Assembly: GCF_030718205.1 (NCBI RefSeq)
Contig: NZ_JAUZQF010000003.1
Location: 434,001 to 498,000, forward strand
Length of the DNA stretch: 64,000 nucleotides
Direction: 5' to 3'
From: Nonomuraea turcica
GTDB lineage: Bacteria > Actinomycetota > Actinomycetes > Streptosporangiales > Streptosporangiaceae
In this document: one piece after another, positions 44,196 through 62,925 of the stretch
How positions within the stretch are numbered: the stretch's first letter is position 1
Layout: each line of letters begins with the position of its first letter
Position numbers and translations under genes: made by a program
Notes under the pieces: model-generated
The model's input: the letters and a program-made list of their open reading frames with translations, nothing else
What the model was told of the DNA's origin: nothing
Database searches by the model: none

Positions 44196-44819
44196 GTGCC
44201 CGACAGGGAAGCGCCCACACCGCCGCGCCCCCGTCCCTATGAGAGCCCCGGCCCTTATGAAAAGGGGCGGGCGAAGCGCCGGGAGATTCTCGACGCCGCG
44301 CTGGAATTGATCGCCGTAAACGGCTATGGCAACACGAGCGTGCAGCAGATCGCCGACGCGGCGAACCTGACCAAGGCAGGCCTGCTCTACCACTTCGGCT
44401 CGAAGGAGAACCTCCTGACCGAGGTGCTCCGTCGTCGCGACGAACGCGACGTCGCCGCCTTCACGAACAGCGGCGCCGCCGAACCGCGCATCACCCGCAT
44501 CGTCCGGCACAACAGCGAGGTGCCCGGCCTCGTGGAGCTGTACTCGGCGCTGGTCCAGGAAGGAGTCGACCCCGAGCACCCCGCACACGACTTCTTCAGT
44601 GAGCGTTTCCGCCGGGTCACCGGAAACGTGCGCGCCGACATCGGGCACGCCGTGGACGCAGGCGAACTGCGGCAGGGGCTCGACGCCGAGATGCTGTCCC
44701 GCATCCTGATCGCGGTCGCGGACGGTCTCCAGCAGCAGTGGCAGTACGACCGCTCGATCGACATGGCAGCGCATCTCGACTACCTGTGGTCGCTGCTCGG
44801 CGAGGGAGGCACGGCATGA
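44196..44819 (+). CDS. TetR/AcrR family transcriptional regulator
   Basis: About 207 residues. Helix-turn-helix: KGRAKRREILDAALELIAVNGYGNTSVQQIADAANLTKAGLLYHFGSKENLL, a textbook TetR pattern. The C-terminal domain resembles TetR_C of the carbohydrate-operon type. The GTG at 44196 has AAGGGA five bases upstream; the ATG at 44181, directly after the GH3 stop, is the alternative. Its stop overlaps the next start (ATGA), so it is cotranscribed with both glycosidase genes and likely autoregulates the operon. Confidence 0.88.
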   Translation: MPDREAPTPPRPRPYESPGPYEKGRAKRREILDAALELIAVNGYGNTSVQQIADAANLTKAGLLYHFGSKENLLTEVLRRRDERDVAAFTNSGAAEPRITRIVRHNSEVPGLVELYSALVQEGVDPEHPAHDFFSERFRRVTGNVRADIGHAVDAGELRQGLDAEMLSRILIAVADGLQQQWQYDRSIDMAAHLDYLWSLLGEGGTA

Positions 44820-48790: not shown

Positions 48791-50605
48791 TCAGGTGACC
48801 ACACGCAGACGCTCGATGGAATCCCACGCGGGAGGCTCTGGCCACCCGCCCCCGCCTGCGGCATCTGGTCCCGCCGAAGCCGGGCCCGCGCCCTCCAGGC
48901 CGATGACCGCGCAGGCCAGTAGGTGCTCGCCGGGCGGCAGGTCGCCCTTCAGCGTGGGGATCGTGGTGCGCGGGGCGAACACGTTGGTGCCGGGCAGGGC
49001 CGTGACGAGGGCTCCCTCCCGCCGGCCGGACAGGTCCTCGATCGCGCACAGGCCGTTCGGCGAGTCGAGCCGGGCCCGGCCGGGACCGATGTCGACTCGG
49101 GTGGGCGGCCGGTCCCGGTCGACCGCGAAGGCGCCCTCGGCGGTGCGCAGCGCCCGCCCGGTTCTGATCCGGTGCACCCGCACGTGCCACGGGGGCAGCG
49201 CCACCAGCCAGGTCTCGATCTCCACGTCGTCCCAGGGCGTCCAGCGCGCGTGCAGCACGCCGTCGGAGGCGGAGGCGTCGTCGGGCAGCTCGCACGGCCG
49301 CCAGTGCTCGCCGTCCTCGCTGAGCGCCAGCGTGCTGTCGAAGGCGCCCTGCTCGAGCTTCAGGGTCCCGGCGGGCACGCTGAAGCCGAAACGCGTGGAA
49401 TAGGCGAACTTGGCGTACTTGGCCGCGCCGTGCCGCGCCCAGGGGTTGCGCTGCCCGGCGCTCAGCATCACCACGTGCCGTCCCTCCTCGCAGCGCATCA
49501 GCGCCACGCCTGCCTCCGGCTGGGTGCTGACCTCGGGCAGCGGGGGAGCGTCGGCCTCCTTCGCGGCCCAGAACGGATGCTCCGCGGGCAGGGCGAGCGG
49601 CAGGAACGCCTTCATGGCCCAGTACGGCGAGCCGGGCGCGTTGTACTGCTCGGCCAGGTGCGGCTGAGGATAGCCGTAGCCGATGGTGAGCAGCCCGGCG
49701 GTGTCGCGGATCGGCCGGCGGCCCCACCAGCGCAGGTTCCGCAGCAGGTGCCCCTTGGTCACCTCCCACGGCAGCGCCTCGACACCGGCGAAGGCCAGCG
49801 CCCCCCAGAACGCCGACTGCGCGAAGCGGTAGGTCAGGCTCCTGCCGAACGGGACGGCGACGCCCTCGCTGGTGAACCAGTGCTGGAAGTCCTGGGCGAA
49901 CGTCGCGGCCCGCTCGCGGAAGCGCCCGGCCCTGTCCGGGTCGTCGCCGAGCGCCGCGTAGATGAGGCCGTAGTAGTGCATGGCGAAGGGGATGTAGTAG
50001 TCGCGCTGCCACGTGGGCCCGTCGGAGTACCACCCCCGTCCGAGATCGAACTGCTCCAGCCGGTCGAGCCTGGCCCTGTTGGCGTCGTGGTCGTAGGAGA
50101 CTCCGACGCGGCGGAGCCCGAGCCCCACCATGACCGGGAAGAACATCCAGTTGTTGTTGTTCGGCTCCACGGTGACCGCGTGCCGCAGCCAGGCGGCCAC
50201 CGTGTCGCGCTGCCGGCCGGTCAGCGGGTCCCAGATCTGCTCGGGGGCCAGGGCGAGCGTCAGGCCGATGGCCGCGGTCTCGACCAGCCGCTGGTTCCGG
50301 TCGAAGACCGCGCCCCAGTAGTCAGGGTGATCGGGGTCGGTCCCGGCGGCGAGGCCGGCGCGCCAGAGCTCCCAGTGATCGAACGTCCCGCCGCCGGCCG
50401 CCAGCGGCGCCAGCCCCCACAGCGGGCGTGCAAACGCTTCCAGCTCGGAGGCCGCCTGGTCGTAATGCGCCGTGTTGAACCCCAGCCGCAGTCGCCCCCT
50501 ACCCGGGCTGAACCGGGAGATCAGCGGCTCCACCAGGTCTAGGACCTGACGGCCCAGGTCATCTCGGTCGCTGCCAGTCCGTCCTGCGCGGTCGTCGGTG
50601 TCCAC
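48791..50605 (-). CDS. DUF2264 family protein, putative glycosidase
   Basis: A 604-residue soluble protein. The N-terminal two thirds form an alpha/alpha-barrel-like DUF2264 domain (RLGFNTAHYDQAASELEAF, RPLWGLAPLAAGGG, NNNWMFFPVMVGLGL, WYSDGPTWQRDYYIPFAMHYYG) and the rest is beta-rich. DUF2264 proteins occur in polysaccharide loci, and I recall some being placed in a beta-glucuronidase family of GH type; that is memory, not search. A perfect GAAAGCGCTTTC box lies 18 bases before its ATG, placing it in the regulon of the adjacent LacI gene. Confidence 0.8.
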   Translation of the reverse strand: MDTDDRAGRTGSDRDDLGRQVLDLVEPLISRFSPGRGRLRLGFNTAHYDQAASELEAFARPLWGLAPLAAGGGTFDHWELWRAGLAAGTDPDHPDYWGAVFDRNQRLVETAAIGLTLALAPEQIWDPLTGRQRDTVAAWLRHAVTVEPNNNNWMFFPVMVGLGLRRVGVSYDHDANRARLDRLEQFDLGRGWYSDGPTWQRDYYIPFAMHYYGLIYAALGDDPDRAGRFRERAATFAQDFQHWFTSEGVAVPFGRSLTYRFAQSAFWGALAFAGVEALPWEVTKGHLLRNLRWWGRRPIRDTAGLLTIGYGYPQPHLAEQYNAPGSPYWAMKAFLPLALPAEHPFWAAKEADAPPLPEVSTQPEAGVALMRCEEGRHVVMLSAGQRNPWARHGAAKYAKFAYSTRFGFSVPAGTLKLEQGAFDSTLALSEDGEHWRPCELPDDASASDGVLHARWTPWDDVEIETWLVALPPWHVRVHRIRTGRALRTAEGAFAVDRDRPPTRVDIGPGRARLDSPNGLCAIEDLSGRREGALVTALPGTNVFAPRTTIPTLKGDLPPGEHLLACAVIGLEGAGPASAGPDAAGGGGWPEPPAWDSIERLRVVT

Positions 50606-50622
50606 AGACTCTCTCTCCCTTG

Positions 50623-50634
50623 GAAAGCGCTTTC
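50623..50634. promoter_or_regulatory. LacI-type box upstream of DUF2264 gene
   Basis: GAAAGCGCTTTC, a perfect 12-bp palindrome, 18 bases before the DUF2264 start and after the LacI stop. It is the best of four related boxes in this locus. Confidence 0.8.
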
Positions 50635-50685
50635 AGAGAAAGAGTTCCCGCCGCCGCCCTCACTTGTCAACGGCCTGCCGTACGG

Positions 50686-51711
50686 CTACCCGGCCAGTTC
50701 CCTGGTCACCGGGGGTGCGGTGCTGTCGCGGACGTGCAGCTCCATCGACAGGTACACCGGCTCCCCGTCGTGCCCCTCGGTCATGAGCATCTCCAGCATC
50801 TCGGCCGCCTGCTTGCCGAGCTGTCCCCGGGGCACCGACACCGTGGTCAGGCTCGTGTGCGCCACGTGGTCCAGCTCGATGTCGTCGAACCCGACCACCG
50901 ACAGATCCTCGGGAACCCGCACCCCGAGCTCGCGCATCCGGGTCACCGCCCCCAGGGCCACCAGGTCGTTGTAGGTGGTGAGCGCGGTGGCGCCGGTGCC
51001 GGGCACCTCGGCGGCGGCCTCGTACCCGGAGTGGCTGGTGGACCCGCACGGCAGGATCGTGACGGAGAGGCCGAACGCCTTGGCCGCCTCCAGCGCCCTG
51101 ATCCGCTCGGAGTTGGCCCAGGACACCTCGGGCCCGCTCAGGTAGGCGACCCGGCGGTGGCCCAGCTGCGCCAGGTGGCCGCAGATCAGCATCATCCCGC
51201 CGAAGAAGTCGGCGGAGACGGCGGGCGCGGCCAGGCCGGAGACTATCCGGTCGAGCAGGACGAGCGGATGGTCCCGGGCGGTCAGGCCGACCAGGTCGGA
51301 GCGCTCCATGCGGGGGGAGCAGAGCAGCACCCCGTCGCAGCTGCGCATCAGGTCCTCGACCAGGTCGTGCTCGATCGCGGGGTCCTCGTCCGACTCCATG
51401 ACCATGACGCGGCGCCCGTGGGAGCGGGCGACGTCCGAGACGGCCTTGAGCACCTCGGGAAAGTAGGGGTTGGCCAGGTCGGGCACCAGCACGCCGATGG
51501 TGCCCCACTCTCCGCGGGCGAGCCCCTGCGCCGCGGCGTTGGGCCGGTAGCCCAGCTGCCTGACCGCGTCGTGGACGCGCGCCGCCAGCAAGGGGTCGAC
51601 CTTGGCCGTGCCATTGAGCACGCGGGAGACCGTCGAGACCGACACCTCCGCCGCCGCCCCGACGTCGCTGATCGTCACCCGGGTCGAGCGGCCCTGCCGC
51701 AGATTACGCAC
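50686..51711 (-). CDS. LacI family transcriptional regulator
   Basis: A 341-residue repressor: helix-turn-helix TISDVGAAAEVSVSTVSRVLNG, hinge LGYRPNAAAQGLARG and the periplasmic-binding-like effector domain (GVLVPDLANPYFPEVL, VVGFDDIELDHVAHTSLTTV). It is 29 bases downstream of the TIM-barrel isomerase gene and thus in that operon, and upstream of the DUF2264 gene. It probably binds the four GAAAGCGCTTTC-like boxes of the locus and is released by a sugar ligand. Confidence 0.93.
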   Translation of the reverse strand: MRNLRQGRSTRVTISDVGAAAEVSVSTVSRVLNGTAKVDPLLAARVHDAVRQLGYRPNAAAQGLARGEWGTIGVLVPDLANPYFPEVLKAVSDVARSHGRRVMVMESDEDPAIEHDLVEDLMRSCDGVLLCSPRMERSDLVGLTARDHPLVLLDRIVSGLAAPAVSADFFGGMMLICGHLAQLGHRRVAYLSGPEVSWANSERIRALEAAKAFGLSVTILPCGSTSHSGYEAAAEVPGTGATALTTYNDLVALGAVTRMRELGVRVPEDLSVVGFDDIELDHVAHTSLTTVSVPRGQLGKQAAEMLEMLMTEGHDGEPVYLSMELHVRDSTAPPVTRELAG

Positions 51712-51740
51712 CTGCTCCTCCTACCCCCGTGAAGCGCCCG

Positions 51741-52517
51741 TCAGCCGAGCAGCCCGCGCAGATGATCCAGATCCCGCCGTACGGCCGCCGCCGGGTCGGC
51801 CGCCGGATAGTGGACGTGCAGTGACAGCGCTCCGGTGTAGCCACGTGCGCGCAGCCCAGAGATGATCTCCGGCCAGCGGACGACGCCTCCGTCTGCAAAC
51901 GGTTGCCACTCGCACACCCAGCCGTCCGCGGTGGATCGCCAGACGGCGTTCTTCACTCCCATGCAGGCCATCCGATCGCCCAGCAGATCGACATTGAGTG
52001 CCCATGCCTCGCTGCCCTCCTTGGCCTGGTTGCCGGGGTCGGCATAGAAGCGCACGTCGTCCAGGTCGCCTGCGAGCGCGAGGGCGAGCGAGGCGGATGG
52101 ATGGATCGTACCGTGATGCAGCTGGAGCGCCAGCTGTACACCGTGCCGGGCGGCGAGGCCGGCCAGGCGGGCCAGCGCGGCCCTGGACTCCGCCAACCGG
52201 CGGTGGTATCCGGCGGCGGGGTCGTAGCGGTAGAAGCCCGCCCGCACGAGGGGGACACCGGTCTCGCCGCAGGCTGCGATGATCCGTTCGGCGTCCGCAT
52301 CGGCGTCGAGCAGGTCGGTGGTGACGACGTCGAGGGTGAGCCCGCGGCGCTCGAGCTCCGCGGCGACGACGGCGATACCGCCGGGCTCGGCGGGGCTGAC
52401 CGTCTGCCCCTCACGCACGACGAGGTCCGCCCCGTCGGCGCCCACCGAGGCCAGGGCCTCGGCCAGCCGGGCGGCATCGATGGGACCGAAGGGCTTGGTG
52501 AAGGCAAGCAGGCGCAC
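51741..52517 (-). CDS. Sugar phosphate isomerase/epimerase-type TIM barrel protein
   Basis: A 258-residue AP-endonuclease-2-like barrel: RLLAFTKPFGPIDAARLAEALASVGADGADLVVREG, LALQLHHGTIHPS, FYADPGNQAKEG, YTGALSLHVHYP, with His/Asp/Glu residues suited for metal binding. Such enzymes isomerise or dehydrate sugars and sugar acids. It leads the minus operon with LacI and is divergent from the ABC importer operon over a 306-base spacer with three LacI-type boxes. Confidence 0.8.
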   Translation of the reverse strand: MRLLAFTKPFGPIDAARLAEALASVGADGADLVVREGQTVSPAEPGGIAVVAAELERRGLTLDVVTTDLLDADADAERIIAACGETGVPLVRAGFYRYDPAAGYHRRLAESRAALARLAGLAARHGVQLALQLHHGTIHPSASLALALAGDLDDVRFYADPGNQAKEGSEAWALNVDLLGDRMACMGVKNAVWRSTADGWVCEWQPFADGGVVRWPEIISGLRARGYTGALSLHVHYPAADPAAAVRRDLDHLRGLLG

Positions 52518-52535
52518 ACGTACTCCCCGTGGTCA

Positions 52536-52547
52536 GAAAGCGCTTGT
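52536..52547. promoter_or_regulatory. LacI-type box upstream of isomerase gene
   Basis: GAAAGCGCTTGT keeps the core of GAAAGCGCTTTC and lies 19 bases before the isomerase start. The rest of the 52518-52822 spacer shows two further boxes near the importer side and no additional gene. Confidence 0.6.
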
Positions 52548-52699
52548 AGAGCTTCGTTTCAAGGCTGCCGATTGCCGCAACCCGTCGCGACCCTACCGCC
52601 GCGATCCGCCGAAAAATGCCTGTATAACCGCTTGTTCTGGGCGGCGGCGAGCTGTAACAGCCGTCGACGGGCAGGTCTTCGCCGACCGAGCATCGATCT

Positions 52700-52711
52700 G
52701 AAACCGCTTTC
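52700..52711. promoter_or_regulatory. LacI-type box upstream of ABC importer operon
   Basis: GAAACCGCTTTC differs from the palindrome GAAAGCGCTTTC in one base. It lies about 110 bases before the binding protein gene. Confidence 0.6.
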
Positions 52712-52762
52712 TCACAAGTCTTGAATCGGGTTATGAGCCGGGTTACTCTCGACAAACCTCGG

Positions 52763-52774
52763 GCAAGCGCTTTC
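52763..52774. promoter_or_regulatory. Second LacI-type box upstream of ABC importer operon
   Basis: GCAAGCGCTTTC, one base off the palindrome, 63 bases from the preceding box (centre to centre) and about 50 bases before the binding protein start. The two boxes are six helical turns apart, suitable for cooperative repression. Confidence 0.65.
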
Positions 52775-52822
52775 CCGTCTGTCCGAGCACCCCTCTGGCC
52801 TCCGCCTCTTAGGGAGGGCTCC

Positions 52823-54289
52823 ATGAATCCTCATCGGCGTGGCACCGCCGCGATCATCACCGCAGCCATCGCGTCACTACTCGTGGCGGCGTGCGGCACA
52901 TCGACCAACAGCAGTAGCGGCGGCGGTGGTACGCAGACCACGCTGAAGATCTGGGACTTCTCCGCCGAACAGGTGCAATTCCACAAGGATGTTGGCGCGC
53001 AGTTCACCAAGGAACATCCCAACATCACGATCGAGTGGCGCTCGATCACCCAGGCCGACTACATGAAGACCCTGCCTCTGGCCTTCCAGAGCAACCAGGC
53101 GCCGGACATGTTCTACTGGAACGCCGCCGGGCTGTCGGAACTGCTGGACCAGAAGTGGATCCGCCCGCTCAGCCCGAGCGGGACCGTCCCCGCCGACTTC
53201 ACCAAGCGCTGGCCGGACGGATCCTTCCTGGAAGGCATCAACATGCAGGACGGGAAGACGTACGGCTTCCCGTTCACGGAGAACCTCTACTGGGGCTCCG
53301 GCTACATGTTCCTCAACAAGCAGGTCTTCCATCAGGCCGGGCTGGACGTCAACAACCCGCCCAAGACCTGGACCGACCTCAAGAACGCCTGCGCGCAGAT
53401 CAAGGCCAAGACCAAGGCGGAGTGCATCGCCGCGCCCACCAAGGGCGAGGACATGCAGCGGATCTGGTACGGGCTGCTCAGCAGCGTCTCGACCTCGTCG
53501 ACCGACTTCTTCGACTACAAGACGGGCAAGTTCAACCTGACCGAGCCCGGGCAGCTGAAGACCTTCGCCTTCATCCAGGAGCTCAAGAAGGCCGGGTACC
53601 TGGCGCCGGGCACCAACGACAAGAACTTCTCCCGCCAGCAGTTCGCCGCCGGGCAGGCCGGCATCTACTTCGACGGCACCTGGATGCTGAGCGTGTGGGA
53701 CAGCCAGGGCTTCAGCAGCGACAACTACGTGGTGGCGCCGCGCGTCGACCCGGACGAGGGGCAGGCCGGCGCGGGCGGCCGCACGTACGACGGCAACAAG
53801 TACTGGGTCAGCTCGCAGACCAAGCATCCCGACGCCGCCTGGACGTTCATCCAATGGATGACCGACCCGAACGGCTACTTCGTCCAGCAGTACTACAAGA
53901 ACGCCTTCGGCACGCTGTCCTACGTCGACAACCAGAAGATGGTCACCCATCCGGTGCTCAAGCAGATCATGGAGATCGGCTCGAAGCCGGGCTACCGGGT
54001 CCAGCTCCCCGAGCCGCTGCTCAAGTGCCCCGACATCGCCAAATCCAAGGCGTACGTCAACGCGCTGACGAAGACCCCCGACGCGGAGTGGGAGGCCATG
54101 AACGAGGCGCTGGTCAGCGGCCAGCCTCTGGCGTCCGTGGGCGCCGCTGTCGTCAAGCAGCGGCAGACCGCCTTGGAGGAAGGGCTCAAACAGGAGGCGG
54201 CCAGCGGCCTGAAGGTGTCGATGGACTGCTACACCTTCCCCGACTGGGACACCACGAAGGACTACACCTCGGACATGTACAAGAGCTAA
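52823..54289 (+). CDS. ABC sugar transporter substrate-binding lipoprotein
   Basis: A 488-residue lipoprotein. Signal with lipobox LLVAAC (Cys about residue 24), a Ser/Gly linker, then the family 1 fold (TLKIWDFSAEQVQFHKDVGAQF, APDMFYWNAAGLSELLDQKW, YGFPFTENLYWGSGYMFLNK). The start has AGGGAGGG at 52811-52818 and fits the signal peptide; the frame is open further up but through the promoter boxes. It collects the oligosaccharide for the permeases that follow. Confidence 0.92.
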   Translation: MNPHRRGTAAIITAAIASLLVAACGTSTNSSSGGGGTQTTLKIWDFSAEQVQFHKDVGAQFTKEHPNITIEWRSITQADYMKTLPLAFQSNQAPDMFYWNAAGLSELLDQKWIRPLSPSGTVPADFTKRWPDGSFLEGINMQDGKTYGFPFTENLYWGSGYMFLNKQVFHQAGLDVNNPPKTWTDLKNACAQIKAKTKAECIAAPTKGEDMQRIWYGLLSSVSTSSTDFFDYKTGKFNLTEPGQLKTFAFIQELKKAGYLAPGTNDKNFSRQQFAAGQAGIYFDGTWMLSVWDSQGFSSDNYVVAPRVDPDEGQAGAGGRTYDGNKYWVSSQTKHPDAAWTFIQWMTDPNGYFVQQYYKNAFGTLSYVDNQKMVTHPVLKQIMEIGSKPGYRVQLPEPLLKCPDIAKSKAYVNALTKTPDAEWEAMNEALVSGQPLASVGAAVVKQRQTALEEGLKQEAASGLKVSMDCYTFPDWDTTKDYTSDMYKS

Positions 54290-54349
54290 GACCGGACGGC
54301 GCCGTCGGCCACGCGCCGGCGGCGTGCCCTTCCCTTCGTGAGGACATCT

Positions 54350-55354
54350 ATGACAACCATCGCCCCTGCCCCCGGCAGGGAGAGGGTGACGGAGAGCGAC
54401 CGGTCGCCCGCCGAGCGTGTGCCCGAACGCGTCGATCACTCCCGCGAGCGCGTCCGCGGCCTCGACAGGGTCTGGCTGCTCGTCTTCCTGGCCCCCTTCC
54501 TCCTGCTCTACCTCGGCTTCACCATCTGGCCGCTGATCGCGACGATCTACTACTCCTTCTTCGACTGGTCGGGCATCGGCCCGATCGAGCCTTTCGTCGG
54601 GACCCGCAACTACAGCACGATCCTGGCCGATCCGCTGTTCTGGGTCTCAGTGGTCAACACGCTGGTCTTCGCCCTGCTGACGACCGCCATCAAGCTCCCG
54701 ATCTCGCTGGTGGCGGCGATCCTGCTCACCCGCAAGTGGCTGCGCGGCAAGCCGTTCTTCCGGACCGTGTTCTTCGCGCCGCTCATCATCCCCGTCGCCA
54801 TGGCAGGCCTGGTCTTCACCTACCTGCTCAACCCGTCCAACGGCGCGCTGAACGCGATCCTGCGTGACTTCGGCCTGGTCGATCAGGGGTTCGACGTGTT
54901 CGCCAACCGGTGGAGCGCGTTGCTCGTGCTCGTGCTCGTCTCGATCTGGCAGATCTTCGGCCAGTACATGATCTACTGGATGGCGGCGCTGCAGAACGTG
55001 CCGGAGGAGCTCTACGAGGCGGCCGCCATCGACGGCGCGAGCGAGTGGAAGAAACTCACCCGCATCACGCTGCCGATCATCAGGCCGGTCGCCGTGATCA
55101 TCACCCTGCTCGGCCTGGTGAACGCCATGCACGTCTTCGGGCTGGTCGTCACGCTCACTGCGGGCGGGCCCGGCACCAGCACCTACGTGGTGTCCTACTT
55201 CATCTACCAGAACGCCTTCGGCAGGGTTCCGTTCGCCTACGGTTACGCCTCGGCCGCGGCGCTGCTGTTCTCCGTCATCGCCTTCGTCCTGGTCTCCGCC
55301 CAGGGCCTCGCGGTTCGCCGGGCGCAGCGGCTCAGGAAGGAGTACGGCGTCTGA
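54350..55354 (+). CDS. ABC sugar transporter permease, MalF type
   Basis: A 334-residue permease with a long charged N-terminus, about six membrane segments (VWLLVFLAPFLLLYLGFTIW first) and the EAA loop YEAAAIDGASEWKKLTRITLP. The ATG at 54350 has GAGGA six bases upstream. It lies 60 bases after the binding protein gene and overlaps the next permease gene (TGATG). No ATPase gene is in the operon. Confidence 0.93.
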   Translation: MTTIAPAPGRERVTESDRSPAERVPERVDHSRERVRGLDRVWLLVFLAPFLLLYLGFTIWPLIATIYYSFFDWSGIGPIEPFVGTRNYSTILADPLFWVSVVNTLVFALLTTAIKLPISLVAAILLTRKWLRGKPFFRTVFFAPLIIPVAMAGLVFTYLLNPSNGALNAILRDFGLVDQGFDVFANRWSALLVLVLVSIWQIFGQYMIYWMAALQNVPEELYEAAAIDGASEWKKLTRITLPIIRPVAVIITLLGLVNAMHVFGLVVTLTAGGPGTSTYVVSYFIYQNAFGRVPFAYGYASAAALLFSVIAFVLVSAQGLAVRRAQRLRKEYGV

Positions 55355-56208
55355 TGACGACGATCACTCAGGCCGCCCGGCGCAGCCACACCGTGCGGGG
55401 CAACCTCATCGCCCTGCCGATCCTGCTGGTCATCGGGCTCGTGTGGGCCTATCCCTTCCTGTGGACGATCTCGGCCGCGTTCAAGACCCAGGCCGGGATG
55501 TTCACCAGCGGCGCGAGCCTCGTGCCGGACCAGCTCAACTTCGACAACTTCGTACGGGCCTGGGTCAACGCCGGTTTCTCCGGATACTTCTTCAATACGG
55601 TGCTCTACTCGGTCGTCTCGACCTTCATCGAGCTGGTCAAGGCGGCCCTGTGCGGCTATGTGCTGGCCAGGTACGAGTTCCCAGGGCGCACCCTGCTCTA
55701 CCGGATGATCGTGGGGACCCTGTTCATCCCGGTCGCCTCGATCATCGTCCCGCAGTTCGTGCTGATCGAGAACCTCGGCCTGCTGAACACGCGGGCCGGG
55801 GTCATCCTGGCCATGTCCGGCGGCGCCGGCGCCCTCTACGTCCTGCTGTTCGTGGGGTTCTTCTCCAGCGTCCCGGCCGACCTGTTCGAGGCGGCCAAGC
55901 TCGACGGGGCCGGCTTCCTCAAGACGTTCGGCCTCATCCTCCCGCTGGCCAAACCGGTCATCGCGGTGGTGGTCATCTTCCAGTTCATCAGCAGCTGGAA
56001 CGAGTTCAACATCCCGCTGGTGTTCACGCTCGGCCAGCCCGACCTGCAGAATCTCGCCGTCGGGATGATGTCCTTCCAGGGTGAGTACGCCACCGACTGG
56101 ACCGGGTTCGCCGCGGGAATGACGATCTCGTTCCTGCCGATGCTGATGATCTTCCTCTTCTTCCAGAACTACTTCACGCGCGGCCTGGCCGGCGCCACGA
56201 AGGGGTGA
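55354..56208 (+). CDS. ABC sugar transporter permease, MalG type
   Basis: A 284-residue permease: first segment LIALPILLVIGLVWAYPFLW, EAA loop FEAAKLDGAGFLKTFGLILP and the family C-terminus NYFTRGLAGATKG. It completes the importer and is coupled on both sides by overlaps. Confidence 0.93.
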   Translation: MTTITQAARRSHTVRGNLIALPILLVIGLVWAYPFLWTISAAFKTQAGMFTSGASLVPDQLNFDNFVRAWVNAGFSGYFFNTVLYSVVSTFIELVKAALCGYVLARYEFPGRTLLYRMIVGTLFIPVASIIVPQFVLIENLGLLNTRAGVILAMSGGAGALYVLLFVGFFSSVPADLFEAAKLDGAGFLKTFGLILPLAKPVIAVVVIFQFISSWNEFNIPLVFTLGQPDLQNLAVGMMSFQGEYATDWTGFAAGMTISFLPMLMIFLFFQNYFTRGLAGATKG

Positions 56209-57401
56209 CAATCCGCTTGAAGATCACCGCCGGTGATCCCTCGACGGTGAGGCACGGCGCGTTCGCCTACACCTGGGACATCGTGGGCGACCCCGCGGCG
56301 GCCGAGCGCATCGCCGGCCTCGGCGTGAGCACGGTGACCTTGCAGGCCGCCTACCACTCGGTCCGGGCCACCACCCCGTGGCATCCGCGCCACCGCATCG
56401 TGCAGGCCGACCACGCGGCGGCCTACTTCCGGCTGCGCCCAGAGCGCTGGCGTGGGCGGCTCCGGCCGTACCCGCCGAGCTGGGGGGTGCCCGACGAGGA
56501 CAGGTTCGGCGCGGCGCTGACCGCGCTGGCCGGGACCGGGCTGCGGGCCGAGGCTTGGCTGGTGCTCACGCACTCCTCGGTGCTGGGCCGCGAAGCGCCC
56601 GACCTGACGGTGCGCAACGCCTACGGCGAGCCCTACCCCTACGCGCTCTGCCCCGCTCAGCCCGCCGTCCACGACTACGCGCTGACCCTCGTGAGCGAGG
56701 TGTGCGAGCAGTACGACGTGCCCGCGCTGATGCTGGAGGCCTGCGGCTGGCTGGGCGCCGAGCACGCCGGCCACCACGAGAAGACCTCCGGCGCGCACCT
56801 GTCCGCCTGCGGTAGGGCGCTGCTGTCCCTCTGTCTCTGCCCGGCCTGCCGGGCCGCGCTGGCCGGGGGCGGCCTGGACGTCGATGAGCTGGCGCGCGAC
56901 GTGCGCGCCGCCGTGGACGGAGAGCTCCAGCAGGGCGTCCCGGCCGGGACCAGCCTGGACGACGCGCTCGGCCGCGAGCGCGCTCAGGCCCTGTACGGTC
57001 ACCGCGGCCAGGTCATCGCCGGCCTGGTCCACGGTGTGGCAGCACTGGCCGGCGACCGCGAGCTGCTGCTCATGGCCACCGACGACCCGCAGGTCACCGG
57101 CCCCGACGTGGGCATCGACCTGGCCTCCTTCGACGCGCCGGTCGACGCGTACGTGCTCAAGTGCTGGGGCCCGGAGGACGCGGCACTGGCCCAGGTGAAG
57201 GCCGCGGCGAGCCGTACCGAAGTCCCGCTCGTCGCCAACCTCACCGTGCTGGAGGACGGCCACGCCCGGATTCCGGCTCTCGCCGCCGACCTCGTCGCCA
57301 GGGGCGCGCGGCACCTGCGTTACTACCACGCCGGGCTGGGCTCGCCTGCCCGCCTGGCCAGCATGCGGGCGGCGGCTCGCTTGAAGGAGAGGCAATGCTG
57401 A
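56205..57401 (+). CDS. TIM-barrel-like protein of unknown function
   Basis: A 398-residue protein not recognised with certainty. It starts at GTG 56205 overlapping the permease stop and runs HGAFAYTWDIVGDPAAAERI, STVTLQAAYHSVRATTPWHP, then NAYGEPYPYALCPAQPAVHDYALTLVSEV, LMLEACGWLGAEHAGHHEK and LCLCPACRAAL (a CxCPxC element), ending with a barrel-like C-terminus VDAYVLKCWGPED. Placement inside a sugar operon and the barrel-like layout suggest a glycosidase or hydrolase. No signal peptide. Function is not established. Confidence 0.7.
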   Translation: MTIRLKITAGDPSTVRHGAFAYTWDIVGDPAAAERIAGLGVSTVTLQAAYHSVRATTPWHPRHRIVQADHAAAYFRLRPERWRGRLRPYPPSWGVPDEDRFGAALTALAGTGLRAEAWLVLTHSSVLGREAPDLTVRNAYGEPYPYALCPAQPAVHDYALTLVSEVCEQYDVPALMLEACGWLGAEHAGHHEKTSGAHLSACGRALLSLCLCPACRAALAGGGLDVDELARDVRAAVDGELQQGVPAGTSLDDALGRERAQALYGHRGQVIAGLVHGVAALAGDRELLLMATDDPQVTGPDVGIDLASFDAPVDAYVLKCWGPEDAALAQVKAAASRTEVPLVANLTVLEDGHARIPALAADLVARGARHLRYYHAGLGSPARLASMRAAARLKERQC

Positions 57402-58381
57402 ATGGCCTGTACGTGATGGATCCGAACCGCTTCGACGACGTCTACGGCCCGCAGGCCCGGGCCGCGATCGAGCGGCACCTGACCATCGCCTCGCCCCCGC
57501 TCACCGCCGACCGGCTCACCCCCGACGTGCTCGCCGACCTCCAGGTACTGGTGACCGGATGGGGGGCGCCCAGGCTGGACGCCGAGCTGCTCGCCGCCGC
57601 GCCCAAGCTCTCGCTGGTGCTGTACGGCGCGGGCTCCATCCGCCCGCTGGTCACCCCCGAGATGTGGGCCAGGGGAGTGCGGGTCACCTCGGCGGCCACC
57701 GCCAACGCCACCCCGGTCGCCGAGTTCGCGCTCTCGCAGATCCTGTACGCACTCAAGCACGGCTGGCGCTACGTGCTGACCGCGCGCGCCACCGCCGCCC
57801 CCGCCGTGCGCGGGCCCGAGACCGGCGCCTATGACGCGGTGGTCGGGCTGGTCTCGCTCGGCGCCACGGGCCGGGCCACGGCGCGGCTGCTCGCCCACCA
57901 CGACCTCGTCGTGCAGGCCTGCGACCCGTACGCCGACCCGGAGGAGGCGGAGCGGCTCGGGGTGCGCCTCGTCGGCCTGGAGGAGCTGTTCGCCACCTCC
58001 GACGTGGTCAGCCTGCACGCGCCGCTCATCCCTGAGACGCGCGGCATCGTCGGCTCCAGGCAGCTGGAGTCGATGAAGCCCGACGCCACCCTGATCAACA
58101 CCGCGCGCGGCGGCCTCGTCGACGAGGCCGCGCTCGTGGACGTCCTGGGCCGGCGGACCGACCTGTTCGCCGTGCTCGACGTCACCGACCCGGAACCGGC
58201 CGTCGCGGGCTCGCCGCTGTTCACGATGCCCAACATCGTCGTCACCCCGCACGTGGCAGGCAGCCTGGGCCACGAGCGGCGCCGCCACGGGGAGGCGATG
58301 GCCGAGGAACTCGCCCGTTACGTCGCGGGGGAGCCGCTGCTGTACGAGATCATCGAGTCCGGGCTGGCGAGGAGGGCATGA
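57395..58381 (+). CDS. D-isomer-specific 2-hydroxyacid dehydrogenase
   Basis: A 328-residue NAD-dependent dehydrogenase. Nucleotide site VVGLVSLGATGRATARLL, catalytic Arg in INTARGGLVDEAAL, Glu in VTDPEPAVAGS and His in VTPHVAGSLGHERRR. The first glycine motif is slightly unusual (SLGATG). It reduces a 2-keto acid or oxidises a D-2-hydroxy acid. It starts with AAGGAGAG upstream and overlaps both the preceding and next genes. A closely placed second dehydrogenase follows. Confidence 0.9.
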   Translation: MLNGLYVMDPNRFDDVYGPQARAAIERHLTIASPPLTADRLTPDVLADLQVLVTGWGAPRLDAELLAAAPKLSLVLYGAGSIRPLVTPEMWARGVRVTSAATANATPVAEFALSQILYALKHGWRYVLTARATAAPAVRGPETGAYDAVVGLVSLGATGRATARLLAHHDLVVQACDPYADPEEAERLGVRLVGLEELFATSDVVSLHAPLIPETRGIVGSRQLESMKPDATLINTARGGLVDEAALVDVLGRRTDLFAVLDVTDPEPAVAGSPLFTMPNIVVTPHVAGSLGHERRRHGEAMAEELARYVAGEPLLYEIIESGLARRA

Positions 58382-59367
58382 GCACCAGTGGCCGCCGAGG
58401 CCTACCCACCCTGGTCCTGCTGCCGCCGCACGATCCGGTCACCGAGGGCTGGCAGGCCCGGCTGGAGCAGGCGGTGCCGGACCTCGTCGTGCTTCGGCCG
58501 GAGACCCGCGAGGAGGCGGCACACGCGCTGGCGGAGGCCGACGCCGCCTACGGCACGCTGCCCGCGGACCTGCTGGCGCACGCCGGGCGGTTGTGCTGGC
58601 TGCAGGCCCCACAGGCCGGGCCGCCTCCGGGGTTCTACCATCCGGCCCTGGTCGCGCACCCCGTGCAGGTCACCAACATGCGCGACACCTACACCGACCA
58701 CGTGGCCGCGCACGCGCTGGCGCTCGTGCTCGCGTTGGCCAGGGGCCTGCCCAAGTACGCCCGAGACCAGGCCCACGCGCGCTGGGCACCCCACTGGGAC
58801 CCCGCCACCGTGCTCTCCTTGGGCGAGGCCGCGGCCTTGGTGGTGGGGGTGGGCGCGGTCGGGGCCGAGGTCGGCAGGCTGCTGGCGGCGTTCGGCACCA
58901 GGGTCGTGGGCGTGGACGCCCGGCGCGGCGGCCCCGTGCCGGGCTTCGCCGAGGTGCTGCCGGCCGACGCCCTCGACCGGCTGCTCCCCGAGGCCGATCT
59001 GGTCATCCTTACGGTCCCGCACACCCCCGCCACGGAGGGACTGCTGAACGCGCGGAGGCTTGCCCTCGCCAAGCCCGGGGCGTACATCGTCAACGTCGGC
59101 CGCGGGGCCACCGTCCGGCTCGACGACCTCGCCGCCGCCCTGGAAGCGGGGCACCTGGCCGGCGCGGCCCTGGACGTCTTCGAGACCGAACCGCTCCCGG
59201 CCGATCATCCCCTCTGGCGGCGTCCCGACGTGCTCATCACCCCGCACGTGGCCGGCGTGGGGCCGCATGCCGGCGAGCGGCGCTTCGCCGTCCTGCTGGA
59301 GAACGCCCGGCGTTTCGTGGCCGGGCGGGAACTGATCAATCTGGTCGACAAGTCTGAATGGTACTGA
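58378..59367 (+). CDS. D-isomer-specific 2-hydroxyacid dehydrogenase (second copy)
   Basis: A 329-residue dehydrogenase of the same family but divergent from its neighbour: VVGVGAVGAEVGRLLAAFG, IVNVGRGATVRLDDLAAAL, DVFETEPLPADHPLW and ITPHVAGVGPHAGERRF. The Arg, Glu and His of catalysis are kept. The ATG overlaps the previous stop. Two different members side by side suggest two substrates or a reduction/oxidation pair. Confidence 0.9.
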   Translation: MSTSGRRGLPTLVLLPPHDPVTEGWQARLEQAVPDLVVLRPETREEAAHALAEADAAYGTLPADLLAHAGRLCWLQAPQAGPPPGFYHPALVAHPVQVTNMRDTYTDHVAAHALALVLALARGLPKYARDQAHARWAPHWDPATVLSLGEAAALVVGVGAVGAEVGRLLAAFGTRVVGVDARRGGPVPGFAEVLPADALDRLLPEADLVILTVPHTPATEGLLNARRLALAKPGAYIVNVGRGATVRLDDLAAALEAGHLAGAALDVFETEPLPADHPLWRRPDVLITPHVAGVGPHAGERRFAVLLENARRFVAGRELINLVDKSEWY

Positions 59368-59368
59368 C

Positions 59369-60709
59369 ATGATCAAAAGACGGAACTTCCTGCTCGGCGG
59401 CACGTTAGTCGCCCTGGCTCCGCTCCTGCCCGACTCGCCCGCGCTCGCGAGTTCCGGCTTCGCCGTTCAGACCGTCGCCACCGGTGTGGCGGCCAAGAGC
59501 GATCGGCGCGCCATGGCCGGCGGCCTGTACGACCCCGTCGCGGGCAAGACGTTCATCTCCTGGACGGGGGAGAACACCAACCCGTACGTCGCCGCCTACG
59601 ACCACGCCACCGGCAGGTGGACCCAGCCGATCAAGGTCGGGCAGTCGCCCAAGGGCGACTCGCACCACTACCCGGTGATGATCCAGGCCGACGACGGCCG
59701 GCTCCTGGTCTTCTACGGCTCGCACAACAGCGTCCAGCGGCTGGCCACCTCCCAGCCGCACACCGTCGAGGGTGACTGGACCGACGGGACCGTCGACGCC
59801 GCGCCGCGCTCGTCGTACCCCATGCCCGTCAAGGCGAGCAACGGCGACATCTACCTCTTCTTCCGGGACACCCCACGCAACGACGACCCGTCCTTCCCCA
59901 CCGACTACCGGCCCATCCACTACCTCCTGTCCACCGATGACGGCCGTACCTGGACCCACTCCAAGGACCTGGAGGGCATCCCGTTCGCCATCGGCTCCAC
60001 CGACCGGTCCGACAACTGCAACGAGATCTACATCGGCGAGATCGAGGTCACCCCGGCGCAGGGGAACGTGCCGGAACGGTTCCACTTCGTCTGGACGCTC
60101 GCCGGCGGCGGACCCGGCCGCCACGAGCACGACTACTACCACCGCAACCTGTACTACGCGGCCTTCCAGCCGGGCGACCGGCACTTCTACAACGCCGCCG
60201 GCGACGACCTCGGCACCCGCGTGGACTGCGGCGACGCCTCCCGGCTCCCGCTCGTCCTGGAGACCGAGCTGAAGCGGGCGAAGCCGCTGTCACGAGACGT
60301 CGGCTACACCCATCTGGTCGGGTCGATGGCGGGCAACCGTCCCGTGCTGCTGTTCATGCTCCAGGACGGCGACACCACCGTCGTGCACGCGGCCGCGTGG
60401 CAGGGACACGAATGGCGCATCGCCGAGATGACCAGGGAGGCGACCCTGTTCGACAAGGAGCAGATCTCCCCGGCCGCGTTCCGCGTCTACGCCAACCCCG
60501 CCGACGGGACCTCGGCCGTCTCCACCTACATCCTGGAGAACGGCACCCACTGGCGGTCCGAGGCCAGGGTCCCCACGCCCACCAGGATCCAGCGTGCCAG
60601 CCTCATCGCCGGCTTCCGCGACCCCGCGCGCGTCGTACTGACCGGCTCGGCCGCCGGCGTCACGGTCCCTGAAGGCGGCATGTTCGTCCTCGGGATGCCT
60701 ACGACGTGA
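59369..60709 (+). CDS. Secreted BNR-repeat propeller protein (BNR_4 family)
   Basis: A 446-residue protein with a Tat-like signal (MIKRRNFLLGGTLVALAPLL) and a seven-bladed-propeller pattern: SHHYPVMIQADDGRLLVFYGSHN, SYPMPVKASNGDIYLFFRDTP, HYLLSTDDGRTWTHSKDL, SDNCNEIYIGEIEVTP. It resembles BNR_4 proteins, which include lyases of ulvan type (PL24/PL25-like) and glycosidases. The three His-containing strips could serve as catalytic residues. It is the only clearly exported enzyme-like protein of this operon, and so may perform the first cleavage outside the cell. Confidence 0.78.
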   Translation: MIKRRNFLLGGTLVALAPLLPDSPALASSGFAVQTVATGVAAKSDRRAMAGGLYDPVAGKTFISWTGENTNPYVAAYDHATGRWTQPIKVGQSPKGDSHHYPVMIQADDGRLLVFYGSHNSVQRLATSQPHTVEGDWTDGTVDAAPRSSYPMPVKASNGDIYLFFRDTPRNDDPSFPTDYRPIHYLLSTDDGRTWTHSKDLEGIPFAIGSTDRSDNCNEIYIGEIEVTPAQGNVPERFHFVWTLAGGGPGRHEHDYYHRNLYYAAFQPGDRHFYNAAGDDLGTRVDCGDASRLPLVLETELKRAKPLSRDVGYTHLVGSMAGNRPVLLFMLQDGDTTVVHAAAWQGHEWRIAEMTREATLFDKEQISPAAFRVYANPADGTSAVSTYILENGTHWRSEARVPTPTRIQRASLIAGFRDPARVVLTGSAAGVTVPEGGMFVLGMPTT

Positions 60710-61833
60710 ACCGGATAGCACGCGTCGAGACCTTCACCGTGGCCCTGCCGTCGCTGCGCGACTTCGCCGTCGCGGGCGGGTCCGTCGTCCAGGGCGGCCG
60801 CCCGGCCGTCAGAGTCCTGGTGAAGGTCACGGCCGACGACGGCACCACCGGGTGGGGCGAGGCCACCCCGATTCCCTCCTGGACGTACGAGACCACCGAG
60901 TCCATTGTTTCCACCATCGACGGCTACCTGGCCCCGGCGGCCGTCGGTCGCCCGCTGTGGGATCTGGACGGGCTCTGCCGCGCCTTCGACCGCACCATCA
61001 GCAAGGGCTTCTCGATCGGCATGCCGCTGGCGCGCGCGGCGGTCGACGTGGCCTGCCACGACGCCTTCGCCCGCAGCCTGGGCGTGTCCCTCGGCGAGCT
61101 GTGGGGCCGGCGCAGGCGCGACACCATCGAGCTGGCCTGGATCGTGGCCGGCCAGTCGGCGGCCGAAGCAGCCGACTCGGTGGCCGAGGGTAGCGCGCAC
61201 GGCTACCGCCACCTCAAGGTCAAGATCGGCCTGCACGCCGAGGACGAGGACGTGGCCATCGTGGCCGCAGTACGCGCCGTCGCCCCCGACGCCGTGCTGT
61301 GGGTGGACGCCAACCAGGGCTACACGGCCGCCGCCGCACTCCGGGTGGCCAGGCGCCTGGCCGACCTGGACGTCGCCGTCTTCGAGCAGCCGCTGCCGTC
61401 CAACGACATCGCCGGTCTGCGCCGCCTGCGTGACGCCAGCCCCGTCCCGGTGGCCGTGGACGAGAGCCTGCGCCACCCGAGCGACCTGGCGACGTTCGTC
61501 CGGCTCGACGCCATCGACGTCGCCGTCGCCAAGGTGCAGCGCTGCGGCGGGCTGACCCTGGCGCTGCGCCAGTGCCAGCTCGCCGAGGACTCCGGCCTGG
61601 CGATCATGGGCTCCGGCCTCACCGAGTCCGACGTTGGGCTGGCCGCCTCGCTCCACCTGTTCGCCGCGTTCGGCGTGGACACGCCGGTCGACCTCAACGG
61701 CCGGCAGTTCATCACCAGTCCCTACGCCACGGATCCGGTCATCACCGTCGCCGATGGCGTCGCCCACGTGCCCACCGGCCCGGGTCTGGGGATCGGCGTG
61801 GACGAGCAAGCGGTCCGCGCGCTCGCTCTTTGA
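60706..61833 (+). CDS. Enolase superfamily enzyme, mandelate racemase/muconate lactonizing type
   Basis: A 375-residue enzyme. Residues of the MLE subgroup are clear: KxK in LKVKIG, metal ligands in WVDANQGY, FEQPL and AVDESLR, the second lysine in VAVAKVQRCGG and GSGLTESDVGLAASLHL. It abstracts a proton next to a carboxylate, for racemisation, cycloisomerisation or sugar-acid dehydration. The GTG at 60706 overlaps the previous stop (GTGA). In this operon a sugar-acid dehydratase or epimerase role is more likely than muconate degradation, by context. Confidence 0.88.
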   Translation: MNRIARVETFTVALPSLRDFAVAGGSVVQGGRPAVRVLVKVTADDGTTGWGEATPIPSWTYETTESIVSTIDGYLAPAAVGRPLWDLDGLCRAFDRTISKGFSIGMPLARAAVDVACHDAFARSLGVSLGELWGRRRRDTIELAWIVAGQSAAEAADSVAEGSAHGYRHLKVKIGLHAEDEDVAIVAAVRAVAPDAVLWVDANQGYTAAAALRVARRLADLDVAVFEQPLPSNDIAGLRRLRDASPVPVAVDESLRHPSDLATFVRLDAIDVAVAKVQRCGGLTLALRQCQLAEDSGLAIMGSGLTESDVGLAASLHLFAAFGVDTPVDLNGRQFITSPYATDPVITVADGVAHVPTGPGLGIGVDEQAVRALAL

Positions 61834-61983: not shown

Positions 61984-62070
61984 ATGTCTCGAGTCCTGGT
62001 CCTCAGCGGGCCCAACCTCCGCGCACTGACGCTCACGCAGCTGTCGCACCTGCTTGAAAGGAAGAAGTGA
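61984..62070 (+). pseudogene. Truncated type II 3-dehydroquinate dehydratase (AroQ) start
   Basis: A 28-codon frame reads MSRVLVLSGPNL and then RALTLTQLSHLLERKK. The first part is the conserved N-terminus of AroQ (family MSRVLVLNGPNLGRLG) and the gene then collapses. The stop overlaps the ATG of the shikimate dehydrogenase gene (TGATG at 62068-62072). It is likely an internally deleted aroQ that still works as a translated leader for the genes behind it. Confidence 0.65.
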
Positions 62071-62915
62071 TGGCCTCGTTCCTGGTGGGGTTGATCGGCT
62101 CGGGCATCGGCCCCTCCTTGAGCCCGCCGCTGCACGAGCAGGAGGCCGGACACCACGGGTTGCACTATGTCTATCGGCTGCTCGACACCGACCGCCTGGG
62201 GTGTGACGTGGGGGAGCTGGTCCGCACGGCCCGCCGGTTCGGCTACGACGGGCTCAACATCACGCATCCCTGCAAGCAGGCCGTCATCCCGCACCTGGAC
62301 GAGCTGTCGCCGGACGCCGCCACGCTGGGCGCGGTCAACACCGTGGTCTTCGACGGCGAGCGGGCCGTCGGGCACAACACCGACTGGACGGGCTTCGCCG
62401 AGTCGTTCGCGCGGGGCCTGCCCGATGCCCCGACCCACCAGGTCGTGCAGCTCGGCGCCGGCGGCGCGGGAGCCGCGGTCGCGCATGCGCTGCTCACGAT
62501 GGGCGCCGACCAGATCACCGTCGTCGACGCGGACCCGGCGCGAGCGCGCGCCCTCGCCGGCGAGCTGGCCGCCCGCTTCGGCGCCGGGCGTGCATGCCAT
62601 GCGCTCCCGGCCGAGCTGCCGGAGCTCCTGGCCCAGGCCGAAGGTCTGGTGCACGCGACCCCGACCGGGATGGCCCATCATCCCGGCCTGCCGCTGCCGG
62701 CCGAGCTGCTCCACCCCGGGTTGTGGGTGGCCGACATCGTCTACCGGCCGCTGGAGACCGAGCTGCTGCGGCACGCGCGGGCCGCGGGATGCCGGACGCT
62801 GGATGGCGGCGGCATGGTCGTCTTCCAGGCCGTACACGCGTTCAGGCTGTTCACCGGCCGCGAGCCGGACGCCGAGCGGATGCTCGCCCACCTGACCGAT
62901 CTCATCGCCGTCTGA
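62070..62915 (+). CDS. Shikimate/quinate dehydrogenase
   Basis: A 281-residue enzyme: GSGIGPSLSPPLHEQEAGHHG at the start, the substrate motif NITHPCKQAVIPHLDELSPDAATLGAVNTVV, the nucleotide site LGAGGAGAAVAHALL and the end GGGMVVFQAVHAFRLFTG. It interconverts 3-dehydroshikimate and shikimate (or quinate). The neighbours, an AroQ remnant and a 3-dehydroshikimate dehydratase, point to catabolism toward protocatechuate rather than the biosynthetic pathway. The ATG at 62070 overlaps the remnant stop and has GAAAGGAAG upstream. Confidence 0.9.
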   Translation: MASFLVGLIGSGIGPSLSPPLHEQEAGHHGLHYVYRLLDTDRLGCDVGELVRTARRFGYDGLNITHPCKQAVIPHLDELSPDAATLGAVNTVVFDGERAVGHNTDWTGFAESFARGLPDAPTHQVVQLGAGGAGAAVAHALLTMGADQITVVDADPARARALAGELAARFGAGRACHALPAELPELLAQAEGLVHATPTGMAHHPGLPLPAELLHPGLWVADIVYRPLETELLRHARAAGCRTLDGGGMVVFQAVHAFRLFTGREPDAERMLAHLTDLIAV

Positions 62916-62925
62916 AGGAGGAAGC

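Follow-up and report, generated by a model that had tools for sequence, protein, structure and literature searches.

A divergent gene cluster of Nonomuraea turcica with a predicted DUF2264 uronoside dehydratase, probably devoted to uronate use

What does a gene cluster that joins a DUF2264 protein, a BNR_4 propeller, an ATP-binding cassette (ABC) importer, two D-2-hydroxyacid dehydrogenases and an enolase-superfamily enzyme do for Nonomuraea turcica? The cluster occupies positions 48791-61833 of a 64-kb stretch of DNA (C38:434001-498000, here called the window) from a genome of 12.66 Mb in 113 contigs. Its gene context leads us to infer a uronate substrate, and we hold with high confidence that the locus is for uronate use. 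With moderate confidence, we read it as a LacI-controlled catabolic cluster for uronic-acid-containing oligosaccharides derived from acidic polysaccharides of plants or microbes. Our confidence in the detailed mechanism runs from tentative to moderate. Loci of other genomes or contigs are cited below by number (L035 and so on).

The DUF2264 protein matches PF10022 with 422.7 bits (cut-off 25) and the DUF2264_C domain with 152 bits (cut-off 27), shows no signal peptide by eye, and aligns with BcGDH (PDB entry 9o4u) at E 8.4e-26. According to the part of PMC12269599 available to us, BcGDH (9O4U, from PUL25 of Bacteroides caccae, filed under GH154) is a β-D-glucuronate dehydratase, and so is the founding member of GH154, BT_3677; the new Δ4,5 end made by the dehydratase is the substrate of GH88. 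The same part of that paper reports no detectable activity on chondrosine for alanine mutants at all ten of the BcGDH residues E74, R78, N176, N177, W178, F181, Y229, R285, Y289 and Y354, with the authors' caution that the substrate in these assays is poor. All ten residues are identical in the window protein, where the counterparts are E56, R60, N151, N152, W153, F156, Y204, R255, Y259 and Y321. The original prediction, a reading of the bare sequence, gave the protein just its DUF2264 family name; DUF2264 is no longer a family of unknown function, having been reassigned from GH154 to uronate dehydratases (PMC12269599, available part). Judged by its residues, the window protein is predicted to be a cytosolic uronoside dehydratase. 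GH154 members also occur in haloarchaeal glycosaminoglycan loci, and a separate, unrelated ulvan dehydratase exists (available parts of PMC13260240 and PMC8511951, respectively). With the systems of BcGDH and BT_3677 the locus shares the DUF2264 domain and all ten tested active-site residues, and lyase or GH88 genes lie near several DUF2264 relatives (L123, L186, L209). It differs from them in its DUF2264_C domain, the lack of GH88, its D-2-hydroxyacid dehydrogenases, and an actinobacterial ABC system in place of a Bacteroidota polysaccharide utilization locus.

The features of the locus, in window coordinates, are as follows.

48791-50605, minus strand: DUF2264 + DUF2264_C protein, predicted cytosolic uronoside dehydratase (former GH154); PF10022, 422.7 bits
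50621-50636, no strand: LacI-operator-like palindrome TGGAAAGCGCTTTCAG, 16 bp upstream of the DUF2264 start; score 12.2 of 27.5
50686-51711, minus strand: LacI-family regulator; PF00356, PF13377
51741-52517, minus strand: xylose-isomerase-like TIM barrel (AP_endonuc_2), putative isomerase/epimerase; PF01261, 73 bits
52761-52776, no strand: LacI-operator-like palindrome GGGCAAGCGCTTTCCC in the divergent promoter
52823-54289, plus strand: ABC solute-binding protein (SBP); PF01547, 128 bits; lipoprotein-like N-terminus by eye
54350-55354, plus strand: ABC permease 1; PF00528; start uncertain, 54350 or 54386
55354-56208, plus strand: ABC permease 2; PF00528
56205-57401, plus strand: TIMu, glycoside-hydrolase-like TIM barrel; unnamed family with a link to uronate metabolism; without Pfam match; model pLDDT 93.5
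57395-58381, plus strand: HDH1, D-2-hydroxyacid dehydrogenase; PF02826, 153 bits
58378-59367, plus strand: HDH2, D-2-hydroxyacid dehydrogenase; PF02826, 170 bits
59369-60709, plus strand: BNR_4 β-propeller, predicted exported uronide lyase (PL25-like); PF15892, 90.1 bits
60706-61833, plus strand: enolase-superfamily enzyme (MR_MLE_N/C) of the muconate-cycloisomerase subgroup; PF13378, 183 bits

The genes form two divergent units across 305 bp, with barrel, LacI and DUF2264 on one side and SBP, two permeases, TIMu, HDH1, HDH2, BNR_4 and the enolase-superfamily gene on the other. From permease 1 through the enolase-superfamily gene the intergenic gaps are −7 to +2 bp, as in an operon; because of these gaps and of synteny in nine other genomes, the locus is more than a chance assembly. 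A scan of open reading frames and Pfam families finds every gene named in the original prediction where it had been placed; the LacI regulator (50686-51711, minus strand) is the one locus gene missing from its list. The prediction's remark that the set works without kinase or aldolase also holds, as the scan of reading frames and families finds neither in the locus. The same scan finds no ATPase gene for the importer; actinobacterial importers of this type usually share ATPases. A PDB sequence search with the xylose-isomerase-like barrel gave nothing at E ≤ 0.01.

TIMu has no Pfam match and its best PDB sequence match is at E 0.39, so by Pfam and by PDB sequences it falls into no known glycoside hydrolase family. 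Its AlphaFold model, built from 44 sequences (pLDDT 93.5), is a TIM barrel. The best Foldseek match is Cwp19 (E 9.4e-11), followed by α-L-fucosidase, PgaB, GH42 and GH156; these are glycoside-hydrolase-type barrels, with TM-scores by query length of 0.47-0.58 and 11-16% identity. No variation occurs in the 44-sequence alignment at E178, where the fourth strand ends, or at H51, H123, H187, H191, C210, C212, C215 and H375. The modelled fold makes TIMu a candidate for a glycosidase-like step, which is our guess. The gene neighborhood of the family was taken from a scan of GTDB contigs that gave 574 candidate stretches, the best 80 of which were kept as loci and examined: 13 of core type (L075-L087) and 67 others (L088-L154). 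Within about 10 kb, 59 of these 67 carry uronate dehydrogenase (Udh), 49 a glucarate-dehydratase-like gene (GlucD) and 65 either one; in the remaining two (L088, L125) the genes are for KdgD-like and EDD-type dehydratases. These labels rest on family representatives, that for Udh matching PDB uronate dehydrogenases at E 2.7e-59 and that for GlucD matching glucarate dehydratases. The TIMu family therefore belongs to uronate or sugar-acid metabolism. Outside the actinobacteria, a Rhodanobacter metagenome-assembled genome (L123) carries two TIMu genes alongside GH88, uronate dehydrogenase, aldehyde dehydrogenase and a DUF2264 protein whose N-terminus is Tat-like.

HDH1 has the motifs NTARG, DPEP and TPH, which contain the Arg, Glu and His that are usual in D-2-hydroxyacid dehydrogenases; in HDH2 the motifs are NVGRG, TEPLP and TPH. 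A survey of DUF2264 gave 41 matches in 30 of 197 genomes of the class, and 37 loci were kept after leaving out three copies of our own genome and one 52-bit fragment. In 14 of these 37 actinobacterial loci DUF2264 has an HDH1-like gene (E < 1e-20) in its vicinity, at no more than 424 bp in 12 of them and at 1.4 and 4.9 kb in the other two; in the window the distance is 6.8 kb. The two other DUF2264 copies of the N. turcica genome each adjoin a dehydrogenase gene, and these two are the closest paralogs of HDH1. HDH1-like genes are found in 0 of the 67 non-core TIMu loci against 14 of the 37 DUF2264 loci (Fisher p 8e-8, with a control that is not genome-matched). This context points to a partnership of HDH1 and DUF2264. 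A 2-hydroxyacid dehydrogenase would be a chemically sensible partner, because the residue freed from a Δ4,5-uronoside would be an α-keto acid.

Other neighbors of DUF2264 also recur. A family of 650-residue proteins is common to the DUF2264 loci L057, L187, L189, L212, L213, L217 and L221; its L057 copy has a weak heparinase II/III C-terminal match (26.4 bits, cut-off 24). All seven loci except L187 have an HDH1-like gene, and most also have an ABC importer and a 237-residue protein without Pfam match. Among the five DUF2264 proteins nearest to that of the window (L202-L206, 55-57% identity), two, in L203 and L204, have BNR sialidase-like genes adjoining; the gene of L203 was tested (PF13088) and that of L204 was assigned by clustering.

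The enolase-superfamily enzyme shows K171-x-K173, D201, E227, D252 and K276, and these six columns are invariant in all seven aligned sequences. Members of the muconate-lactonizing subgroup have KxK on one side, Asp/Glu/Asp as metal ligands and Lys on the other side, and the enzyme follows this pattern. Among PDB entries it matches muconate cycloisomerases best (E 1.3e-44). It matches 18 NCBIfam models and reaches the cut-off of none. We rejected muconate cycloisomerase (TIGR02534, 218 bits, cut-off 334.95) and dipeptide epimerase (NF041118, 139.8 of 500; NF011708, 97.9 of 343) as its identity. At E ≤ 1e-80 across the phylum only our own genome, of 396, gave a match, in a sample that missed the Streptomyces orthologs (71-79% identity). 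Enolase-superfamily cycloisomerases such as Gci and SCO3480 open sugar-acid lactones or anhydro acids (PMC6353982, PMC9706016, in the parts available), which makes a sugar-acid cycloisomerization by the locus enzyme plausible. The locus enzyme has the superfamily in common with the 3,6-anhydro-L-galactonate and galactarolactone cycloisomerases, which make 2-keto-3-deoxy acids from cyclic sugar acids; it is nearest to muconate cycloisomerases among solved structures, and the likeness is at superfamily level.

The BNR_4 protein (PF15892, cut-off 27.3) begins with MIKRRNFLLGG, which looks by eye like a Tat signal. Its only convincing solved relative is the PL25 ulvan lyase 5uam, matched at E 2.7e-11 over residues 59-281 and at E 4.7e-14 with a six-sequence profile; neither PL24 nor PL42 is among its PDB matches. 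An AlphaFold model, from two sequences only, has pLDDT 32. In the PL25 enzyme PLSV_3936, His123, His143, Tyr188 and Arg204 are catalytic (PMC8377490, available part), and all four are kept, as H99, H119, Y150 and R166. The protein is predicted to be an exported, PL25-like uronide lyase. It resembles the BNR_4 lyases of PL25, PL24 and PL42 (ulvan lyases and the L-Rha-α-1,4-GlcA lyase FoRham1) in its domain, in the His/His/Tyr/Arg set of PL25 and in its export-like N-terminus. It differs in that its similarity is distant and to PL25 only, its relatives are confined to the genus (at E ≤ 1e-15, 5 of 249 genomes of the order, our own included), and its presence is optional. The gene sits inside the operon between HDH2 and the enolase-superfamily gene, which meet directly in L039-L043. 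A second BNR_4 protein (47% identity) occurs in a Nonomuraea whose locus has none (L235), where the neighbors looked uninformative by eye.

Taken in order, these proteins would make up the following route. Where present, the exported BNR_4 lyase would cut the glycan by β-elimination at a uronate, and the ABC importer would take up the oligomers. In the cytosol, DUF2264 would remove water from the non-reducing-end uronate and leave a Δ4,5-unsaturated end. A glycosidase-like barrel, with TIMu as candidate, or a GH88 from elsewhere would free the terminal residue as 4-deoxy-5-keto-uronate, an α-keto acid. HDH1 and HDH2 would interconvert this keto acid and a 2-hydroxy acid, and the muconate-subgroup enzyme would carry out an elimination or cycloisomerization to a 2-keto-3-deoxy acid that enters central metabolism without phosphorylation. 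The inner chemistry of dehydrogenases and muconate-subgroup enzyme, without kinase and aldolase, would follow from the gene set, and the release by TIMu or GH88, the details of the dehydrogenase and enolase-type steps and the identity of the glycan are our guesses. We put forward only tentatively this non-phosphorylative route for the 4-deoxy-5-keto-uronates of lyases and DUF2264, with TIMu as a new glycoside-hydrolase-like family that releases or processes the uronate. Non-phosphorylative use of lyase products does exist: in Flavobacterium, 4-deoxy-L-erythro-5-hexoseulose uronate (DEH) is oxidized to KDGR and then to α-ketoglutarate semialdehyde (α-KGSA) and 2-ketoglutarate by other enzyme families (PMC8563752, available part). 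In the open-licence PMC literature we found no description of a pathway with the present enzyme set, in agreement with the original prediction.

The locus is syntenic, at 84-100% identity, in nine other Nonomuraea genomes (297 searched) that have a TIMu ortholog of at least 90% identity. DUF2264 is found in the window and in the Nonomuraea loci L035-L043; BNR_4 is the exception to the synteny, with four of the nine orthologous loci carrying it and L039-L043 lacking it. Outside the genus, core-type loci (L081-L087) gave no DUF2264 match and have LacI orthologs of 67-71% identity. These seven come from Streptomyces and Kribbella. L082-L085 (Streptomyces) lack DUF2264 and BNR_4 but keep LacI, the isomerase-like barrel, the importer, TIMu, HDH1, HDH2 and the enolase-superfamily enzyme, with identities of 56-79%; L086 and L087 (Kribbella) keep LacI, TIMu and HDH2. 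L081 joins LacI, TIMu, HDH1 and HDH2 to an enzyme of the KdgD subfamily (368 bits against a cut-off of 278), a GlucD-like enzyme and PL7, with an aldehyde dehydrogenase about 5 kb away. It gave no separate match to the locus enolase-superfamily enzyme, which hints that the GlucD-like enzyme and the locus enzyme have equivalent roles.

A PL7-type gene follows the core in all seven loci outside Nonomuraea; three of these genes were tested and pass PF08787, and the other four match one of those at 60-68% identity. All seven proteins have RSELRE, QIH and YFKAGxYTQ, which we take to be alginate-lyase motifs. PF05426 genes lie near the core in L082 and L084, and in L209 one adjoins DUF2264, and TIMu and GlucD lie no more than 8 kb away. 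These neighbors favor a core that is an alginate (mannuronate/guluronate) pathway, which Nonomuraea retained while exchanging the lyase. However, both DUF2264-family enzymes tested as dehydratases act on β-glucuronate (PMC12269599, available part). The PL7-type genes may, from their sequences, have substrates other than alginate. In the genome of N. turcica PF05426 has seven weak matches, of 43-65 bits across about 220 positions, and PL7 was not found, in a search where no control genome gave a PL7 match either and the control is thus uninformative. An alginate pathway is possible, on the unlikely side.

The regulatory sites bear on pectin. A palindrome close to GGGYAAGCGCTTRCCC lies at 52761 in the divergent promoter and a weaker one at 50621. 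In a shuffling test on just the window the consensus falls short of significance, with two matches against 1.6 expected at three mismatches. A site in the same place of the divergent promoter occurs in 10 of 10 Nonomuraea loci scanned; as the score matrix was built from seven of these ten, only the sites upstream of DUF2264 serve as a test. These are present 16-35 bp before the start in 8 of the 10, the window included, and missing in L038 and L078. Matching sites also precede KdgD in L081 and TIMu in L086 and L087. In the genome of N. turcica, GGNAAGCGCTTNCC occurs 13 times, against once for the reversed control. Eight of the 13 sites lie 26-144 bp upstream of pectate- or rhamnogalacturonan-lyase genes (L238, L240, L241, L242, L244, L246, L248, L249), one lies between the second DUF2264 and its HDH (L239) and one in the window (L245), where it forms the core of the divergent-promoter site at 52761; of the rest, one has an oxidoreductase-like gene downstream (L243, by eye) and two are inside genes (L237, AP_endonuc_2; L247). 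All 54 Nonomuraea genomes searched carry the palindrome. Counts were compared in 43 of them, the 11 outside the locus survey being dropped: the mean is 10.1 with the locus (n=10) and 4.8 without it (n=33), or 6.3 in locus-free genomes of at least 11 Mb (n=9). Genomes with the locus thus have more sites. We rejected an operator private to the LacI of the window, as the palindrome occurs in genomes without the locus; other regulators must read it there. From the neighbors read in our own genome, GGNAAGCGCTTNCC probably marks a pectin/rhamnogalacturonan lyase regulon. The stretch just upstream of the locus, 42257-46591 of the window, has one gene for GH3 and one for a DUF5060/DUF5605/Apiosidase-like protein (PF13204, 52.6 bits). 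Apiose is a constituent of some pectins, and the second gene would therefore fit a pectin-type operator.

The genome holds further uronate routes. GH88, KduI and KduD stand side by side on C38, near 308-310 kb and roughly 172 kb from the locus, in one run with ABC permeases and an 853-residue protein without Pfam match (L055, C38:298000-317900, 5393-12338). This GH88 is the only GH88/105 unsaturated-uronyl hydrolase found in the genome, and the locus has none. A cluster of Udh, GlucD, KdgD and aldehyde dehydrogenase with a TIMu paralog lies on contig C35 (L058). As both clusters are also present, the locus is one uronate route among several, and it probably handles a specific substrate or epimer. 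The canonical GH88-KduI-KduD cluster, the eight lyase-associated palindromes and a rhamnogalacturonan lyase gene near DUF2264 in one locus (L186) would agree with an accessory branch of the pectin/rhamnogalacturonan regulon. In such a branch, DUF2264 would prime galacturonate or glucuronate side chains, GH88-KduI-KduD would run the main catabolism, and the dehydrogenases and enolase-superfamily enzyme would handle a side product or another epimer. The Streptomyces core, without DUF2264 and BNR_4, nevertheless comes with an importer, a regulator and a PL7 lyase of its own and looks self-sufficient, and PL7 is not known as a pectin lyase family. We regard a pectin side branch as rather improbable.

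About as doubtful is a reading in which TIMu works on monomers as an aldarolactone hydrolase or isomerase, and saturated uronates become 2-keto-3-deoxy-hexarates with HDH1/HDH2 in place of Udh and the enolase-superfamily enzyme in place of glucarate dehydratase or Gci. Udh and GlucD are the common partners of TIMu, in L081 the dehydrogenases accompany GlucD and KdgD and Udh gave no match, and Gci and SCO3480 show the chemistry on lactones and anhydro acids (PMC6353982, PMC9706016, available parts). The TIMu model, however, resembles glycoside hydrolase barrels, with a lactonase named in 0 of the 50 listed Foldseek matches. We know of no D-2-hydroxyacid dehydrogenase that oxidizes C1 of a uronate. 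Aromatic or dipeptide metabolism, with the enolase-superfamily enzyme as muconate cycloisomerase or dipeptide epimerase and the other genes as bystanders, is very improbable, since against the PDB matches to muconate cycloisomerases stand the low family-model scores and the sugar-importer setting, with PL7 or DUF2264, of the orthologs seen.

Several observations also weigh against our own reading of the locus, or against parts of it. BNR_4 is absent from five of nine orthologous loci, because of which it cannot define the pathway, and we rejected it as the locus-defining step; the lyase-like propeller of the original prediction gains the four PL25 residues and loses its place as a fixed member. 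In 23 of the 37 DUF2264 loci there is no HDH1, and several of the genomes behind the other 14 loci are related and so not independent. Three of the 67 non-core TIMu loci carry a gene for a TRAP transporter; such transporters import monomers, and TIMu need not be a glycosidase. The palindrome is also found in 33 Nonomuraea genomes without the locus. The KdgD-like enzyme of L081 stays below the stricter KdgD equivalog cut-off (283 of 374). PL7 was not found in the genome, again with an uninformative control. Finally, the locus lacks a GH88/105 hydrolase and the classical GH88-KduI-KduD route is present elsewhere in the genome, so that the dehydrogenase/enolase route is not needed for that route's intermediate.

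What remains well supported is acidic-glycan use, through the DUF2264 site, the PL25 residues in BNR_4, the TIMu context, the PL7 partners and the shared palindrome; this part of the original prediction stands for acidic glycans in general and not for any one glycan. Its idea of non-phosphorylated handling fits L081, where part of the core is joined to KdgD-subfamily and glucarate-dehydratase-like enzymes; L081 is a single relative, and the inner chemistry would follow from gene content. With the oxidative hexuronate pathway the locus shares the TIMu family, an enolase-superfamily enzyme and an ABC importer, and L081 connects the two through KdgD and GlucD; the locus differs in having two D-2-hydroxyacid dehydrogenases instead of Udh, glucarate dehydratase/Gci, KdgD and α-KGSA/aldehyde dehydrogenase. 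The route through KduI and KduD or DEH reductase to 2-keto-3-deoxygluconate (KDG), KDG kinase and 2-keto-3-deoxy-6-phosphogluconate aldolase presumably has the same input, 4-deoxy-5-keto-uronate, whereas the locus has no KduI, KduD, kinase or aldolase, the KduI-KduD pair being elsewhere in the genome.

On the other side of the locus, at 62067-63999 of the window, a shikimate-dehydrogenase-like gene precedes one for an AP_endonuc_2 barrel, whose C-terminal part gives a weak HPPD-like match (24.9 bits against a cut-off of 27). The two resemble what we take to be a quinate/shikimate catabolic pair and are unrelated to the locus.

If the proposed route is true, the newly recognized DUF2264 uronate dehydratases would extend to soil actinomycetes, and TIMu, a widespread unnamed actinobacterial protein family, would gain a function. 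Substrates would be predicted for five uncharacterized enzymes together. For unsaturated uronates, there would be an inner pathway in which hydroxyacid dehydrogenases and an enolase-superfamily enzyme replace KduI/KduD, kinase and aldolase.

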